The notes beneath the pieces were generated by a model. It made no database searches and was not told the DNA's origin. It saw nothing but the letters and a program-made list of their open reading frames with translations. 64,000 nt of DNA from Streptomyces dengpaensis (lineage in GTDB: Bacteria > Actinomycetota > Actinomycetes > Streptomycetales > Streptomycetaceae), in the NCBI RefSeq assembly GCF_002946835.1, contig NZ_CP026652.1, forward strand, positions 2,976,001 to 3,040,000, written 5' to 3'. This document shows, piece after piece, positions 21,694-28,085 of the stretch. The stretch's first letter is position 1; each line of letters begins with the position of its first letter. Position numbers and translations under genes: made by a program.

Positions 21694-22017
21694 CTACTGC
21701 ATGACCGCCATGGCCAGCGCGCGCCGGGCTCGCATCGAGGCGCGCTCGGCCCGACGCTGCATGCGGCGGGCAGTCGCCAGGCGCACGGCCCGGCGTTCCT
21801 GCTCGGCCCGGTGCAGTCGCTCGTGCATATGCGCACGAGCCAGGGCTTCTGGGATGAGTTGCATCTCTCGGGTCCTGTTCTGACGCGAGTCGTTCGCGCC
21901 GGTGGTGGTGAAGTCTGAGGTCGCGGAGCCTGCGGGCTCGCTGGTGGACGGCTTCATCGGGGCCTGTTTCTTGGGGTCGTGCGTCAGGGGGCGATCGATC
22001 GTTCCTCGGGCGTTCAT
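21694..22017 (-). CDS. small basic helical protein coupled to wblC
   Basis: This is up to 107 residues. The C-terminal half (from MQLIPEALARAHMHERLHRAE) is a highly basic Arg/Ala/Met-rich helix and is the part likely conserved in streptomycetes. Its ATG at 22017 overlaps the wblC stop as ATGA, suggesting translational coupling. An internal ATG at 21864 has AGGA 9 nt upstream and would give 56 residues, so either start may be used. Function unknown; co-expression with wblC is inferred. Confidence 0.65.
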   Translation of the reverse strand: MNARGTIDRPLTHDPKKQAPMKPSTSEPAGSATSDFTTTGANDSRQNRTREMQLIPEALARAHMHERLHRAEQERRAVRLATARRMQRRAERASMRARRALAMAVMQ

Positions 22018-22382
22018 GCCGCAACCGGGTTCTTGCGCGGGCGGCCACGCGGCCGCTTGCGGGCCACGACAACACCCTGGACGAACAGCTCGCCACCCCA
22101 GACGCCCCAGGGCTCACGCCGCTCCTTGGCCCCGGCGAGGCAGGCCTCGATCAGCGGGCAGGTGCGGCAGAGGGACTTGGCGTACTCGACGTCGGCCGGC
22201 GACTCGGCGAAGAAGACCTCCGGGTCGTAGGAGCGGCAGGGGACGGGTACGCCGAGGTTCTCGATGGCGTCGTCGAGCGCGGTGAGCGCAGTGAGCGGGG
22301 TCAAGGTGGAGTCCTCCGTGAGGCCGGGCGGGGGGATCGTTTCGGAAGGCGGTACGGACGGGGCGTGCGCTTCGAGTTGCAC
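22014..22382 (-). CDS. wblC: WhiB-family regulator WblC (WhiB7 orthologue)
   Basis: The 122-residue protein has the WhiB iron-sulfur fold: Cys at PVPCRSYDP, a CRTC pair and CLAG, giving four cysteines for a 4Fe-4S cluster. The G[V/I]WGG turn that contacts sigma region 4 is present, followed by the C-terminal AT-hook RGRPRK. The AT-hook and ELFVQGVVVARK block identify WhiB7/WblC, the activator of intrinsic antibiotic resistance and ribosome-stress genes. GTG 22382 follows GAGGAAG at a suitable distance. A leader of about 600 nt with an upstream ORF, an attenuator hairpin and a WhiB7-type promoter precedes it, so both antibiotic-sensing attenuation and autoactivation are likely. Confidence 0.95.
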   Translation of the reverse strand: MQLEAHAPSVPPSETIPPPGLTEDSTLTPLTALTALDDAIENLGVPVPCRSYDPEVFFAESPADVEYAKSLCRTCPLIEACLAGAKERREPWGVWGGELFVQGVVVARKRPRGRPRKNPVAA

Positions 22383-22498
22383 GGTTCGTCTTCCTCGTCT
22401 GGTCGTGCCGGCCGGTTGGCCGGTTGGCGGCTGGTACCGGGTTCTTTTCTTGTCCCGAGGCCCCTTCGCTCTGCCGCCCCCGGTCGGGGACAAACAGA

Positions 22499-23043: not shown

Positions 23044-25239
23044 TCAGTCATCCTCGTCGCCTCCGCCAAGCTCTTGACCGGCACAGATGGCCAGAACATC
23101 GGCTCCGTAGCGGTTGAGTTTGCGCACGCCGACGCCGGGGATCCGCGCGAGCTCGCCCTCGTCGTCGGGCACGGTCTCGGCAATCGCCATCAGCGTCTTG
23201 TCGGTGAAGACGCAGAACGCGGGCTGCCCACTGCGCTGCGCCTGCACCGCCCGCCATGCGCGCAGCCGCTCGTAGAGAGCCTCGTCCATGTCGGAGGGGC
23301 AGTCCTCACAGCGCATCAGTTTCATCTCGCCGGCGTCGGTCAGCGTACGTCCGCAGACCCGGCAGCGCGCCGGTGTCCGGCTCGTCCGCCGTACGACGGA
23401 GCCGCCGCTGCTTCCGATGCCGCGCTCGATGCCTCCCGTACCGCCGCCGGCGCTCCGGCCCGCGGTGGCGACGGAGCCCGGGCGCAGTCCGTCGAGGAAG
23501 CGGCTGGGCCGGCGGTTGGGTCTGCCGCCGGGTGAACGGGACAACGCCCACGAGACACAGAGGTGTTCTCTGGCGCGGGTGACGCCGACATAGAGGAGGC
23601 GGCGCTCCTCCTCGATCTGCTCGTCGGTCTTTGCGTAGGTGATCGGCATCATGCCCTCGGCCACGCCGACCAGGAAGACGACGTCCCACTCCAGGCCCTT
23701 GGCAGAGTGCAGGGAGGCAAGGGTGACGCCCTGCACGGTCGGGGCGTGCTGGGCGCTCGCGCGCTCGTCGAGCTCCGCCACCAGGTCGCTGAGGGAAGCG
23801 CCCTCCTTGGCGGCGGCGAAGTCCTGTGCCAGGTACACGAGGGCGGCCAGCGACTCCCAGCGCTCTCTGACCGCGCCGGAGCCTGCAGGTGGCTGGCTGG
23901 TCCACCCCTCGCCGGACAGCACGGCACGGACCTGTGAGGGCAGGTCGACGGCGTCGTCGAGCAGGGAGTCGTTACCCCCGAAGCGGGCCGCGGCGCGCAG
24001 GGCGGCGCCCGCCTTGCGCACCTCGGGGCGGTCGAAGAACCGCTCGGCTCCGCGCAGCTGATAGGGCACTCCGGCGTCGGCAAGGGCCTGTTCGTAGATC
24101 TCGGACTGGGAGTTCGTACGGAACAGGATCGCGATCTCGCCCGCGGGGACGCCGGAGGCGATGAGGTCGCGGATGCGGCGGGCGGCTCCCTCGGCCTCAG
24201 CGGGCTCGTCCGTGTACTCGGCGTAGACCGGCTCGGGGCCCGGGGCGCGCTGGGAGATCAGCTCCAGGCGGTGCTCGGCGGCCCGGCCGCGGGCCTGAGC
24301 GAGCAGGCCGTTGGCGAGGCGGACGACCTGGGGCGAGGAGCGGTAGTCGCGGACGAGCTTGACGACGGTGGCTCCGGGGTGGCGGGTGCGGAAGTCAAGA
24401 AGGTGGTCGGGAGTTGCACCGGTGAACGAATAGATCGTCTGGCTGGCGTCACCGACGACGCAGAGGCTGTCGCGCTCGCCGAGCCACAGATCCAGGAGGC
24501 GCTGCTGGAGCGGGCTGACGTCCTGGTACTCGTCGACCACAAAGTGCTGGTACTGGGAGCGGACCTGCTCCGCGATGTCGTGCCGGTCCTGGAGGATGGC
24601 GACGGTCAGCAGCAGGACGTCCTCGAAGTCGATGACCGAGCGGTCACGCTTGAGGTCCTCGTACGTCCCGTAGAGCTGGGCGATCTCGGCCGGGTTCCGG
24701 GGGGCTTCGCGGCCGGCCTTGGCGGCGGCGGCCGCGTAGTCGGCGGGGATGGTCTGGGTGACCTTGGACCATTCGATCTCGGCGGTGACGTCCCGCAGTT
24801 CGCCCCGGTCGAGGCGGATGCGGCAGGCGGCCGCCGCGTCGGCGACGAGCTGGATCTTGCGGTCGACGAGCCGGGGCAGGCTGCCACCGACCGCCTTCGG
24901 CCAGAAGTACTGGAGCTGGCGCAGCGCCGCGGAGTGGAAGGTGCGGGCCTGGACACCTCCGGCGCCGAGCTGGCGGAGGCGGCCGCGCATCTCGCCCGCC
25001 GCGCGGTTGGTGAAGGTGACGGCCAGCACGCTGGAGGGCTGGAGGATCCCGGCGCGCACCCCGTAGGCGATGCGGTGGGTGATCGCCCGCGTCTTGCCCG
25101 TGCCGGCACCCGCCAGCACGCACACCGGACCGTGCAGGGCGGTAGCGACCTCGCGCTGCTCGGGGTCGAGCCCGTCGAGCACCGCGTCGGCCGTGTCCGG
25201 AACCTGCGGGAAGAGGGTGGAGTGCGTTGCTGCTGTCAC
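23044..25239 (-). CDS. uvrD2: ATP-dependent DNA helicase UvrD2
   Basis: This is a 731-residue superfamily 1A helicase: Walker A AGAGTGKT near residue 40, Walker B FVVDEYQDV, motif III GDASQTIYSFTGA and motif IV LVRDYRSS. The C-terminal part has a four-cysteine zinc patch (CRVC ... CEDC) and then an HRDC domain (VRKLNRYGADVLAICAGQEL). Helicase plus tetracysteine plus HRDC is the UvrD2 layout described in mycobacteria, where it is a 3'-5' helicase in DNA repair. GTG 25239 is chosen as the start of the conserved MTAATHSTLFPQVP block; the open frame continues upstream. Its stop is close to the divergently placed wblC promoter. Confidence 0.93.
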   Translation of the reverse strand: MTAATHSTLFPQVPDTADAVLDGLDPEQREVATALHGPVCVLAGAGTGKTRAITHRIAYGVRAGILQPSSVLAVTFTNRAAGEMRGRLRQLGAGGVQARTFHSAALRQLQYFWPKAVGGSLPRLVDRKIQLVADAAAACRIRLDRGELRDVTAEIEWSKVTQTIPADYAAAAAKAGREAPRNPAEIAQLYGTYEDLKRDRSVIDFEDVLLLTVAILQDRHDIAEQVRSQYQHFVVDEYQDVSPLQQRLLDLWLGERDSLCVVGDASQTIYSFTGATPDHLLDFRTRHPGATVVKLVRDYRSSPQVVRLANGLLAQARGRAAEHRLELISQRAPGPEPVYAEYTDEPAEAEGAARRIRDLIASGVPAGEIAILFRTNSQSEIYEQALADAGVPYQLRGAERFFDRPEVRKAGAALRAAARFGGNDSLLDDAVDLPSQVRAVLSGEGWTSQPPAGSGAVRERWESLAALVYLAQDFAAAKEGASLSDLVAELDERASAQHAPTVQGVTLASLHSAKGLEWDVVFLVGVAEGMMPITYAKTDEQIEEERRLLYVGVTRAREHLCVSWALSRSPGGRPNRRPSRFLDGLRPGSVATAGRSAGGGTGGIERGIGSSGGSVVRRTSRTPARCRVCGRTLTDAGEMKLMRCEDCPSDMDEALYERLRAWRAVQAQRSGQPAFCVFTDKTLMAIAETVPDDEGELARIPGVGVRKLNRYGADVLAICAGQELGGGDEDD

Positions 25240-25446
25240 CCCGCCATGCTGCCAGGTCGCCGGAGGCGGAAGAGCCGGTTGTCCACAGGGCGGCACTCGC
25301 AGTCGTACTAATGCGGCAAGCGTCACGTCCTGAGGCGGCAGGCGTCACGTCCCGGCCGGATACCCCCTGCGGGAATGGCGGCCGGGTCACATACGTTCCC
25401 CTGACTGCGACGACGCACCCAGAACCCATTAAGGAGCGCAATCGAC

Positions 25447-25704
25447 ATGCCGGGCACTGTGACGATGTACAGCACCACGTGGTGCGGCTACTGCCGTCGG
25501 CTGAAGAGCCAGATGGACCGCGAGGGCATCACGTACAACGAGATCAACATCGAGCAGGACCCGCAGTCCGCGGCGTTCGTGGAGAAGGCGAACGGCGGAA
25601 ACCAGACGGTTCCGACTCTTCAGATAGTTTCCTCCAGTGGTGGGCCTGCGGTCGTCATGACGAACCCGAGCCTTGCCCAGGTGAAGCGGGCGCTCGGCGT
25701 CTGA
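25447..25704 (+). CDS. mrx: mycoredoxin (actinobacterial glutaredoxin), chimeric C-terminus
   Basis: The 85-residue thioredoxin-fold protein has the active site WCGYC near residue 12 and the cis-Pro motif TVPT near 56. Mycoredoxins reduce mycothiol-mixed disulfides in actinobacteria. AAGGAG precedes the ATG. After TVPT the sequence reads LQIVSSSGGPAVVMTNPSLAQVKRALGV, whereas a displaced fragment at 26931-27017 reads TVLFPDGSTLTNPSLAQVKQKIGV, the more usual ending. The present 3' end therefore appears to have been supplied by an inserted element. The fold and active site look intact, so the protein should still work. Confidence 0.92.
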   Translation: MPGTVTMYSTTWCGYCRRLKSQMDREGITYNEINIEQDPQSAAFVEKANGGNQTVPTLQIVSSSGGPAVVMTNPSLAQVKRALGV

Positions 25705-25718
25705 CCCTCGCGAGACGC

Positions 25719-25751
25719 AACCCCCGACCGGCCTGACGCTGATCGGGGGTT
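25719..25751 (+). terminator. terminator after chimeric mycoredoxin gene
   Basis: A 9-bp stem (25719-25727 with 25743-25751) continues into TTTTG, 15 nt past the stop. It lies inside the inserted segment, so it came with the new 3' end. Confidence 0.75.
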
Positions 25752-25841
25752 TTGTGTGCCCTGGGGACCCCAGCGGCAGGACAGGGCCCGTCCTCGGCAC
25801 GCCCGGAGTCGTCTCCCCCCGTGGTCGACAGGAGGCCGTCA

Positions 25842-26363
25842 TCACCCGAACTTCTGTACGCGCCCCACAGGGGCGCAGACAGACTGAGCGCTCCACTCGG
25901 CGGCCGTCGCCACAGAAGCTCTCGGCGCGTGGTAGCGGAGCCGCCTGGCTGTGGAGGACAGTGGCCAAGACGACGCTCCGGCGGGGGCTGAGCACCTGCG
26001 CGAGGTGGGCCCGCAGGTCGGGTCCGTAGCCGAAGCCCTGTTCCAGGCTCTCGGCGTAGTCGGCGGTCTGCTGCGGGGTCGGTTGCCAGCGGTCCGGGTC
26101 GACCGGGGCGAGACGAGCCCAAACCTCTTGGCGCGGTTGACCGCGTTGGTCGTGCTCTGGTCGGACAACGGCTTGCCCTCATTGCCCAACAAGGCGGCCA
26201 GCTTCCCGGGGCCGAAGGCCGCGTGTCCCAGACGGTCGGCCCATCCGATGGCGGCGAAGTGGACACGGTAGGCAAGCGGGTGCACAGGGTCCTGCGCCAT
26301 ACGCCGGTACTCGTGCTGGGAGACTCCGCCCCACGGGCGGTCATGACCGAAGCTGATGGCCAC
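25842..26363 (-). pseudogene. truncated element-borne gene fused to unrelated sequence
   Basis: A GTG at 26363 with AAGGAG upstream starts a protein whose first 88 residues look genuine (AISFGHDRPWGGVSQHEYRR, HPLAYRVHFAAIGWADRLGHAAFGPGKLAALLG). From memory, such small HTH-like proteins occur in Streptomyces integrative elements and phages. After RAKRFGLVSP the frame becomes Arg/Pro/Thr-rich noise. The genuine-looking continuation (DRWQPTPQQTADYAESLEQG) lies in another frame. A deletion junction between two former genes is the simplest reading. Confidence 0.55.
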
Positions 26364-26578
26364 TGGTCTGCGGCTCCTTCCTGTGAGGCGCACACGAGTG
26401 CGCCAGCGACCCCCGCCGGACGGCGGGACATGTGTCTCCCTTCTTCGCGGGGGTGGCCGTGCGGAAGGCACAGCGCTTCACAGGTGGCGCCCAAGGCTTC
26501 GGGCCTGGACTCGGTCTCATGCAGTCGGGAGCGACGGCGGCGACCTGGCCCGGCATCGTACAACATGCTGAAACGGGA

Positions 26579-26602
26579 AAGGCCCCCGTCGTCGGGGGCC
26601 TT
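26579..26602 (-). terminator. terminator of integrase remnant
   Basis: AAGGCCCCCG and CGGGGGCCTT (26579-26588 with 26593-26602) are followed on the minus strand by TTTCCCG, 20 nt past the remnant's stop. Confidence 0.7.
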
Positions 26603-26622
26603 CCTCGCCTGCTCGACCTTCG

Positions 26623-26868
26623 TCAGGCAGGGGCCGGGACCTTCTCGACTCCCTCTGGTCCTATGGCTTCCTGATCGGTCTTCGCTCGCTGCGCTGCACG
26701 CTCCGCTTCGAAGTCCTCCCAACGGCTGACGATCTCCCACTCCGCCCCCGTAAGCGCCTTGGGCTTCTCGTACGGCTTTCCCGGCAACGAGACCGGCGTG
26801 ATCGGTGAGAGCACCTGAGAAGACTTGGACAGACGGACCACGCCAAGCGCCCTGGGCCTGTCGCTCAC
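26623..26868 (-). pseudogene. internally deleted large serine integrase
   Basis: GTG 26868, behind GGGGAGGGG, begins MSDRPRALGVVRLSK, the N-terminus of Streptomyces large serine recombinases with the catalytic Ser at about residue 14. Within four more residues it jumps to LPGKPYEKPKALTGAEWEIVSRWEDFEAERAAQRAK, which resembles an integrase C-terminus. Only 81 codons remain where about 500-600 are expected, so it must be inactive. It starts about 60 nt from the right att-like boundary, the usual place for an integrase gene. Confidence 0.65.
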
Positions 26869-26930
26869 CCTTGCCCCTCCCCAAGACATGGGCGGCCTCC
26901 CCTGGCCGCCACAAGCAAGAGGGAAGTTTA

Positions 26931-27017
26931 CAGACCGTCTCCACCGTTCTCTTCCCGGACGGTTCGACCCTCACGAACCCTTCGCTGGCGCAGGTCAAGC
27001 AGAAGATCGGCGTCTGA
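26931..27017 (+). pseudogene. displaced original 3' end of mycoredoxin gene
   Basis: The 28 codons QTVSTVLFPDG...NPSLAQVKQKIGV and TGA match the C-terminal third of actinobacterial mycoredoxins, cut off from any start by the inserted segment. The cis-Pro of TVPT is now Ser, which suggests drift. Confidence 0.75.
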
Positions 27018-27023
27018 GCGACG

Positions 27024-27971
27024 TCAGGCGGTGTGCCCCCGCGCCGGCAGGGGCTTGCCGTACCAGAGCTCGATCAGGCGGGCCGCAATCGAGATTCCGT
27101 AGGGAGGCAGCACCTCCCCGGACTCGAAGGCGGCCCGCAGGTCTTCGCGGGAGAACCAGCGGGCCTCATGGATTTCCTCGCCGTCGACGTCGATCTCGCA
27201 CGAGGTGGCGCGGGCCATGAAGCCCAGCATCAGGCTGGAGGGGAAGGGCCACGGCTGGCTGGCGACGTACTCGACCTGGCCGACCGTGACGCCCACCTCC
27301 TCGAAGACCTCGCGGCGTACGGACTGCTCGATGGACTCGCCGGGCTCGACGAAGCCGGCGAGCGTGGAGAAGCGGCCTTCGGGCCAGTGCATCTGGCGGC
27401 CGAGCAGGATGCGGTCGTCGTCGTCCGTGACAGCCATGATCACGGCGGGGTCGGTGCGCGGGTAGTGCTCGGCGCCGCAGGCGGGGCAGCGGCGGATGTG
27501 GCCGGCGGCCGCGATGACCGTGCGCTCGCCGCAGCGCGAGCAGAAGCGGTGCAGACGCTGCCAGTTCTCCAGGGCAACCGCGTGCACCATCAGGCCCGCG
27601 TCGCGGGGTGACAGCAGGAGTCCGGCCTCGCGCAGTCCTGCCGGGCGCGCGGACTGGTCCATGCGGCCGGGAAGCGCGTCCTTCTGGAGTGCGAAGTAGC
27701 TCACCCCGTCGTCGTCCGTGCCCAGGAAGTAGCGGTGCGCCTCGGTGAGCGGGGCCTCGAAGGAGGGGGTCATCACGAGCTCGGTGGTGCCGTCCGCCGT
27801 CTCGTCGATGAGTACCTGACCGCCGGAGACCACGAAGGCGCGGGTTGTGGGGTGGCTCCAGGCCGCCGCGAGCCAGGCCTCGTCGAGCCGGTGGTGGGCG
27901 GACCTGTCGATGCCGCTCGGGGCGGTGAGCGAGATGGGACGGTCGGCGCTGTGGTCGGTCCAGGTGGTCAC
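27024..27971 (-). CDS. nudC: NADH pyrophosphatase NudC
   Basis: The 315-residue protein hydrolyses NAD(H) to NMN(H) and AMP and may remove NAD caps from RNA. It has the NudC zinc ribbon (CSRCGER ... CPACGAEHYPRTDPAVI, near residue 150). The Nudix box follows (GFVEPGESIEQSVRREVFEEVG, near 205), then the diagnostic SQPWPFPSSLMLGF motif. GTG 27971 with GGAAG 6 nt upstream is preferred; sequence above it is not protein-like. Conserved neighbourhood with uvrD2 and mycoredoxin is shared with mycobacteria. Confidence 0.93.
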   Translation of the reverse strand: MTTWTDHSADRPISLTAPSGIDRSAHHRLDEAWLAAAWSHPTTRAFVVSGGQVLIDETADGTTELVMTPSFEAPLTEAHRYFLGTDDDGVSYFALQKDALPGRMDQSARPAGLREAGLLLSPRDAGLMVHAVALENWQRLHRFCSRCGERTVIAAAGHIRRCPACGAEHYPRTDPAVIMAVTDDDDRILLGRQMHWPEGRFSTLAGFVEPGESIEQSVRREVFEEVGVTVGQVEYVASQPWPFPSSLMLGFMARATSCEIDVDGEEIHEARWFSREDLRAAFESGEVLPPYGISIAARLIELWYGKPLPARGHTA

Positions 27972-28085
27972 GGGTGCTTCCAACTCCCCCGGTGGAACGG
28001 TTGTTTCGGCGGGCGGTTCAGCTGGGCGGATGTGAGGGACGCTCTTCAGGGCATGGTCTCGGGGCAGGGGCATGGATCGGCTTCT

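Follow-up and report, generated by a model that had tools for sequence, protein, structure and literature searches.

A decayed serine-integrase element in the mycoredoxin gene of Streptomyces dengpaensis and element-type mycoredoxin endings across Streptomyces

In the window analysed here, a stretch of 64,000 nucleotides from the genome of Streptomyces dengpaensis, the gene for a putative mycoredoxin (mrx) harbors what is almost certainly the decayed remnant of an integrative element put into it by a large serine integrase. Some 25 residues of the mrx product, counted from the proline of a TVPT motif, are replaced by an element-encoded ending, and endings of this kind are carried by about one third of the Streptomyces genomes sampled. 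The initial annotation of this DNA foresaw neither the complete replacement end nor its spread.

The mrx frame is complete (25447-25704, 85 aa) and its product has a Pfam Glutaredoxin domain (PF00462, 1.6e-13). Its sequence identifies the product as a mycoredoxin of putative enzymatic activity, through a glutaredoxin fold with a WCxxC motif and a nearest solved relative by sequence, 2lqo (Rv3198.1, 1.5e-17), that we take to be Mrx1 of M. tuberculosis; the proline of TVPT would presumably be the cis-proline of this fold. The features of the locus are collected in Table 1. The element remnant measures about 1.33 kb from core to core and shows no phage structural genes, and the end of mrx is repeated over 58 nt at 71% identity with a spacing of 1313 nt. 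The window also encodes, at 22014-22493, a small protein that combines four cysteines with a basic tail and is presumably akin to the WhiB/Wbl regulators.

Table 1. Anatomy of the interrupted mrx locus (positions in the window).
Feature	Position	Strand	Evidence or remark
uvrD2-type helicase, left flank of insertion site	23044..25326	-	Pfam UvrD-helicase 1.4e-55, HRDC 7.7e-22
mrx 5' part of host origin, codons 1-55, WCGYC motif	25447..25611	+	long/short hosts about as alike here as same-form hosts
Inferred crossover dinucleotide CC, Pro56 codon of TVPT motif, attL side	25612..25613	+	attP dyad centre in 11/11 elements; allele break just after
attP right half (P') in attL; doubles as hybrid mrx coding sequence	25612..25647	+	
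Replacement C-terminus of mrx, element-encoded	25614..25704	+	matches element-side ends of other elements and long-form hosts
Hairpin with short T run behind hybrid mrx; probable element-supplied terminator	25719..25751	+	inverted repeat; inside element interior
Remnant of small conserved element gene (SFGHDRPWGG protein), decayed C-terminus	26100..26363	-	82% over 88 residues to L018/L052 copy
Remnant of a large serine integrase: codons 1-14 joined in frame to the last 67	26623..26868	-	
attP left half (P) in attR	26906..26939	+	
Native mrx 3' end, displaced, short form, lacking a start codon	26940..27017	+	sequence STVLFPDGSTLTNPSLAQVKQKIGV; cf. PTVLFPDGSTLTNPSLAQVKQKIGV at the end of mrx in hosts L066 and L070
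nudC, right flank of insertion site	27024..28073	-	Pfam NUDIX 5.3e-21, zinc ribbon 3.7e-14

The initial annotation had staked its reading on two points, the kinship of a short frame next to the displaced mrx end with serine recombinases and the absence of tandem mrx genes from most streptomycetes, and the first of these is borne out. The frame in question (26623-26889, 88 codons, minus strand) carries both ends of a large serine integrase. Pfam alone finds no domain in it, and a 581-codon open frame of another Streptomyces genome, G048, is 81% identical to its residues 22-74 (E 1.3e-25). The G048 integrase matches the phrog_95 integrase family (2.8e-83) and displays the order of Resolvase catalytic, Recombinase and zinc ribbon domains that is typical of large serine integrases (PF00239 at 1.1e-23 and PF07508 at 9.2e-6, above cutoff; PF13408 at 7.3e-5, below cutoff), all of them parts that are missing from the window remnant. 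By comparison with the integrase gene of locus L043, an in-frame deletion has removed 1458 bp (486 codons) from the remnant, and 2 bp are shared at the joint.

Searched against 295 Streptomyces genomes, the remnant matched two besides its own (G048 and G283), at up to 18 scored candidates per genome, so that unmatched genomes may still hold relatives; the same applies to the search that yielded more distant integrases, which scored four candidates per genome. The remnant has no match among phages, and the integrase matches 659 phage records, all below 60% identity (33% being the best among the matches listed), and two plasmid records (27%). An alignment of the integrase against viral_contigs returned 50 stretches and no relative, a megablast search of phages with the DNA of the integrase region of G109 returned nothing, and a search of 296 genomes sampled from the class found no integrase at E 1e-110. 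Relatives with 62-64% identity exist in Actinoplanes and Catenuloplanes.

The relatives with open integrases lie in the same gene. G048 and G283 contain integrase genes of 561 and 551 codons, with proteins 79% identical, and in both the displaced mrx 3' piece sits just before the integrase start and the hybrid mrx and uvrD2 lie at the other end, about 2.6 kb (G048) and 7.3 kb (G283) away. A scan of genome_contigs gave 12 loci, these two included. In all 12, a distance of 63-73 nt separates the integrase start from the core of the displaced piece, and ten have the hybrid mrx on the same contig, some 1 to 13 kb off, whereas L041 and L046 have it on a different contig of the same genome. Ten of the 12 loci have an integrase frame that stays open for at least 541 aa, the frames of L050 and L051 being truncated at about 205, and the open integrases start with ..KPRALGV(V/I)RLS; these are the proteins with a RALGVVRLS start for which the initial annotation had advised to search. 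It had also advised to look for prophages flanked by the 5' and 3' pieces of mrx, and two have come to light. The integrases of G109 and G030 are more distant (48-55% identical) and likewise lie in mrx. The respective elements, 33.8 and 31.6 kb long, encode a terminase, portal, tape measure and primase and qualify as tailed-phage prophages by their phrog_38, phrog_104, tape measure and DNA primase families. Their endolysin families are located inside tape-measure-type proteins, and the G109 terminase is 40-43% identical to phage records (best 10 of 27). The proposal that mrx is the attachment site of a serine-integrase element is thus supported by the 12 loci and by both distant relatives.

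Elements in mrx range from remnants of about 1 kb through islets of 2.5-13 kb to the two prophages of 32-34 kb. Islets of 2.5-7.2 kb comprise the integrase gene plus, in part, genes for a Pin-like resolvase, DUF6879, XRE-DUF5753 and a small unfamiliar protein. This SFGHDRPWGG protein (MAISFGHDRPWGGVSQHEYRR...) is encoded near the integrase in L018 (L018:2276-2635), L044, L048 and, in decayed form, the window; its intact copies have no Pfam, PHROGs, phage or plasmid match, and its position makes it a candidate excision factor. No structural, conjugation or replication gene was recognised in the ORF lists of eight islets, read by eye with five proteins scanned, and neither an FtsK-like TraB translocase nor a replication initiator of the AICE kind was seen among the five scanned proteins or, by eye, among the other ORFs.

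The two ends of mrx can be told apart by comparison with hosts in which the gene is uninterrupted. In these short-form hosts mrx ends ...TVPTVLFPDGSTLTNPSLAQVKQKIGV or nearly so, and nudC follows directly. All 15 elements have a displaced piece of this short-form kind, and their hybrid genes end like ...TVPTVQVVPSSGGAEVVMTNPSLAQVKQAL instead; hence, the element disrupts mrx yet supplies a new end for it. Judging from these sequences, the first mrx copy of the window is a hybrid, foreign from Pro56 on, and the second piece is the native end. The initial annotation had described an intact mrx followed by a start-less second copy of its end. Its reading frames and the 58-nt repeat stand, but the origin of the copies is reversed, since it is the first that has the foreign end.

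On each side of the joint, the outermost 34-36 bp of the element constitute inverted arms, as in an attP dyad, with both attP halves read from attL and attR rather than from a free circle. The dyad is best at the same one of six offsets in 11 of 11 elements, and the 2 bp left unpaired at its centre are the CC of the Pro56 codon. Its score is reached by fewer than 3% of shuffles in nine of the 11, and is not significant in L042 and L049 when each is taken by itself; this set omits L047 and L051 for damage to the displaced piece close to the core, and L041 and L046 for having their halves on two contigs. Dyad arms around a 2-bp core and a different attB, which are characteristic of large serine integrases, are thus both present. 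An allele break falls at the same point. Among host pairs with uvrD2 identity of at least 0.92, mrx before the CC scores 0.963 between long-form and short-form hosts (n = 21), 0.980 between short forms (n = 15) and 0.961 between long forms (n = 27), and for the TNPSLAQVKQ codons behind it the long/short value is 0.813, versus 0.964 and 0.969 for the same-form pairs. In a per-base profile at uvrD2 of at least 0.90 (100 long/short, 67 short/short and 75 long/long host pairs), long/short mismatches resemble those of same-form pairs up to the Pro56 codon. The excess starts at the wobble base of Thr57 (0.62 versus 0.30 for short/short and 0.48 for long/long), and mismatches stand at 0.87 and 1.00 five and seven bases further on, where the proteins also differ. 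Likewise, short-form L103 and long-form L153, whose uvrD2 genes are 95% identical, share an identical mrx from codon 5 to GTGCC and diverge thereafter.

The dyad and the allele break indicate that the crossover most likely took place at the CC of Pro56, opposite 26940-26941, and not, as first annotated, in a short common core CAGAC[G/C]GT, which lies just to its left. The two cores of the window differ by one base, CC in the hybrid gene versus TC in the dead piece, so that a later mutation is required if the locus is read as an insertion. We thus propose that the integrase would recombine the attP of the element with an attB inside mrx at this dinucleotide. The resulting attL would retain host codons 1-55 and gain from attP an in-frame replacement end with a probable terminator behind it, which would leave mrx complete and its hybrid product possibly functional, and attR would keep the displaced native end, devoid of a start. 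The element would later decay, as the in-frame loss in the integrase and a broken neighboring gene suggest for the window, and the host would retain the element-encoded ending.

Such endings are widespread. With a 29-aa long-form end as query (E 3e-5), an element-type ending is found in at least 101 of 295 Streptomyces genomes, a lower bound that includes the element carriers G000, G109 and G283 and misses the long-ended G010, G030 and G048. We read 115 loci, of which 72 are long, 42 short (from 41 genomes, with L071 and L114 both in G009) and one frameshifted; these numbers are no estimate of frequency, since the short loci were the best matches to a short query and the first long loci to one long form, and L085, L087, L088 and L091, from other genera, were missed by the motif and left out. 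The frameshifted locus (L210, G171:C1) breaks frame after TVPTVLVVP and has its remaining end in another frame, through either frameshift or assembly error. The serine codon of the NPS motif is AGC or AGT in 64 of the 72 long loci and TCN in 39 of the 41 short loci counted, and the median distance between mrx and nudC is 150 in long versus 93.5 in short loci (p 5e-5), the value being a lower bound in four long loci where nudC was not reached.

Most long-form loci fetched contain neither an integrase nor a native piece. Within the fetched flanks a displaced piece is seen in four of 72 (L155, L162, L191, L208), and a fifth is present on a wider flank in the genome of L181 (G024, L223). These further displaced ends are short in L155, L162 and L223, decayed and seemingly short in L208, and long in L191. 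Traces of other kinds persist in L155, which keeps attP-like arms and has 382 bp between mrx and nudC, and in the genome of L153, which keeps an integrase fragment at 71% identity (L220). In L191 (G025:C1:2367300-2372500), an 84-aa long mrx of the ESVMTNP class is followed 0.9 kb on by a displaced long end of the other class, and the locus probably records two successive insertions at one site, the second by an element of another class. In L222, L221 and L223 (G259, G177 and G024), the long-form mrx and nudC are separated by other genes over about 1.6 to 9.5 kb, which encode, by eye, aminopeptidase-like, kinase-like and ABC-transporter-like proteins among others, as if these scars had become an insertion hot spot. 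Four short-form loci (L069, L071, L097 and L117) have 650-730 nt between mrx and nudC, bearing no similarity to the elements.

Mapped onto a uvrD2 tree of 113 loci from 112 genomes, the long/short label must have changed at least 29 times, in a FastTree as in a quick IQ-TREE analysis. If only well-supported branches are considered and the long group is set against all other rows, 20 and 14 changes are still forced. The tree omits L119, which gave no hit, and the hosts of G109 and L041, which were too short, and counts L210 as neither form. The long group is weakly more clustered than expected by chance (36 changes versus a shuffled mean of 42.8, with 17 of 500 shuffles as low). The long-form ending is thus not vertically inherited. 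The change counts carry no direction, and we infer that change ran from short to long because a mechanism for it exists and because the short end was displaced in 15 of 15 elements. The displaced long end of L191 and the long endings of six genomes from another genus complicate this simple course. Long-form genomes accordingly read as fossil insertions, in which the C-terminus of the enzyme would have been replaced for good.

The evidence for such scars bears directly on two other explanations of the repeated end. The long-form end might be an old host allele, spread among streptomycetes by homologous recombination and captured by the element for its attP, in which case element-free long-form genomes would not be scars. 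The scarcity of displaced pieces among long loci agrees with this, as do the 54 of 72 long loci with no detectable element DNA behind the gene and the long endings (e.g. VVVVAPGGEKVAMTNPSLAQVK) in six genomes from a different genus of the same order (g3: L081-L084, L086, L089), five of which have TCG or TCC as NPS serine codon (L084 has AGC); L090, from another genus, has a short ending. Yet the allele break coincides with the integrase core, there is element DNA behind the stop codon of 18 out of 72 long loci and of none of the 42 short ones, and the difference persists in equal stretches of 150 nt (17/72 versus 0/42, Fisher p 2e-4, although the L164 match, counted among the 17, is inverted and could be a mere hairpin). 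In addition, the attP-arm bases GTNGTYCCC persist in 25 of 72 long loci, against one of 42 short, and we regard the old-allele explanation as unlikely. The 71% repeat, if considered alone, could also stem from simple tandem duplication of mrx or from chance, and this explanation is rejected with near certainty. It is refuted by the element-bearing relatives, with their integrase start at a fixed short distance from the joint in 12 of 12 cases, and it leaves the missing 5' part of the second piece unexplained. No fetched flank of the 115 loci contains a second complete mrx, a partial second end occurring in four and a frameshift in L210, and hence the second point on which the annotation depended also stands.

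Insertion by a large serine integrase being the preferred reading, the nature of the smaller elements allows for two interpretations. The islets of 2.5-13 kb may be decayed prophages or an element class of their own, such as satellites that would borrow packaging and an excision factor from a helper, and we hold the latter as possible, at somewhat less than an even chance. The shared complement of integrase, attP and, in part, resolvase, DUF6879, XRE-DUF5753 and SFGHDRPWGG protein speaks for a separate class, as does the failure to recognise structural, conjugation or replication genes in the eight islets. Some element pairs are also closer than their hosts: shared element DNA is 95.7% identical between L043 and L049 versus 83.6% for uvrD2, 96.7 versus 83.1 (662 bp) between L043 and G295, and 93.3 versus 80.4 between L044 and L047. 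On the other hand, L048 and L052 are as different as their hosts (87.5 versus 88.5), the interior of the window element, aligned with that of L044 over 1198 of 1208 bp, is no closer than the hosts (86.8 versus 88.0), and in six of nine pairs the L042 element is not more alike to its near group than the hosts are. The gene contents of the islets differ, integrases or neighboring genes are broken in L050/G295, L051 and the window, and no helper phage was identified. The islets are thus either prophage remnants or a satellite-like class.

The insertion of serine-integrase elements into coding genes is a known kind of event. The Streptomyces phages and vectors phiC31, phiBT1, TG1, SV1, phiJoe, R4 and Samy use large serine integrases with attB in a coding gene, a 2-bp crossover and an attP with imperfect inverted repeats, according to the available text of two sources (PMC12924846; PMC5311408). 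The family described here resembles these systems in its serine integrase, coding-gene attB, 2-bp core and dyad attP, but differs in its target gene and in that the element also encodes a replacement C-terminus; the available main text of PMC12924846, which compares Streptomyces integration systems, mentions neither 'mycoredoxin' nor 'glutaredoxin'. Replacement of a protein end has a parallel in the attB-8 prophages of Mycobacterium abscessus, where eight residues replace the last seven of MAB_2979 and the product is described as likely still functional (PMC8092301), but about 25 residues are replaced in mrx. The dnaJ2 prophages of Bifidobacterium likewise target the 3' end of a coding gene and restore this gene as they integrate; they differ from mrx elements in their tyrosine integrase and 35-bp common core (PMC6109161). 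Among the thousands of large serine integrases mined by Durrant et al. (2022), the available text reports several diverged integrases acting on one conserved coding-gene site, such as prolyl isomerase (PMC10083194), a pattern that the mrx integrases share; its main text, so far as available, contains neither 'glutaredoxin' nor 'Streptomyces', and the supplementary tables may contain mrx integrases. The PLE satellites of Vibrio cholerae are chromosomal islands with a large serine recombinase and parasites of a phage, as presented in excerpts of PMC6002521 and PMC7145576. The mrx islets are likewise serine-recombinase islands, but neither a helper phage nor anti-phage activity is known for them. 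In agreement with the initial annotation, which knew of no element with a mycoredoxin attB, no paper naming mrx as an integrase or prophage attachment site was found in the literature searched. As far as that literature goes, the site, the element-encoded replacement of some 25 codons and its presence in about one third of the genus are new.

Taken together, these results outline a broader hypothesis to which we would assign an even chance: that serine-integrase phages and islets have time and again changed the C-terminal third of mrx for good across the genus, with the right arm of attP serving both as integrase site and as coding sequence, and that the host keeps the foreign end and thereby loses attB, which would bar re-integration by the same family. 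Several consequences follow for Streptomyces and its mobile elements. The results point to a conserved attachment site in the genus, for which the ten open integrase genes are candidate tools, and the target gene should stay complete upon insertion. The endings also provide a countable fossil record, in which a codon-level marker reveals sites that were probably once occupied by mobile elements lost long ago. With this marker, the frequency at which core genes fix protein ends derived from such elements can be addressed. The immunity that loss of attB would confer is, in turn, a testable claim.
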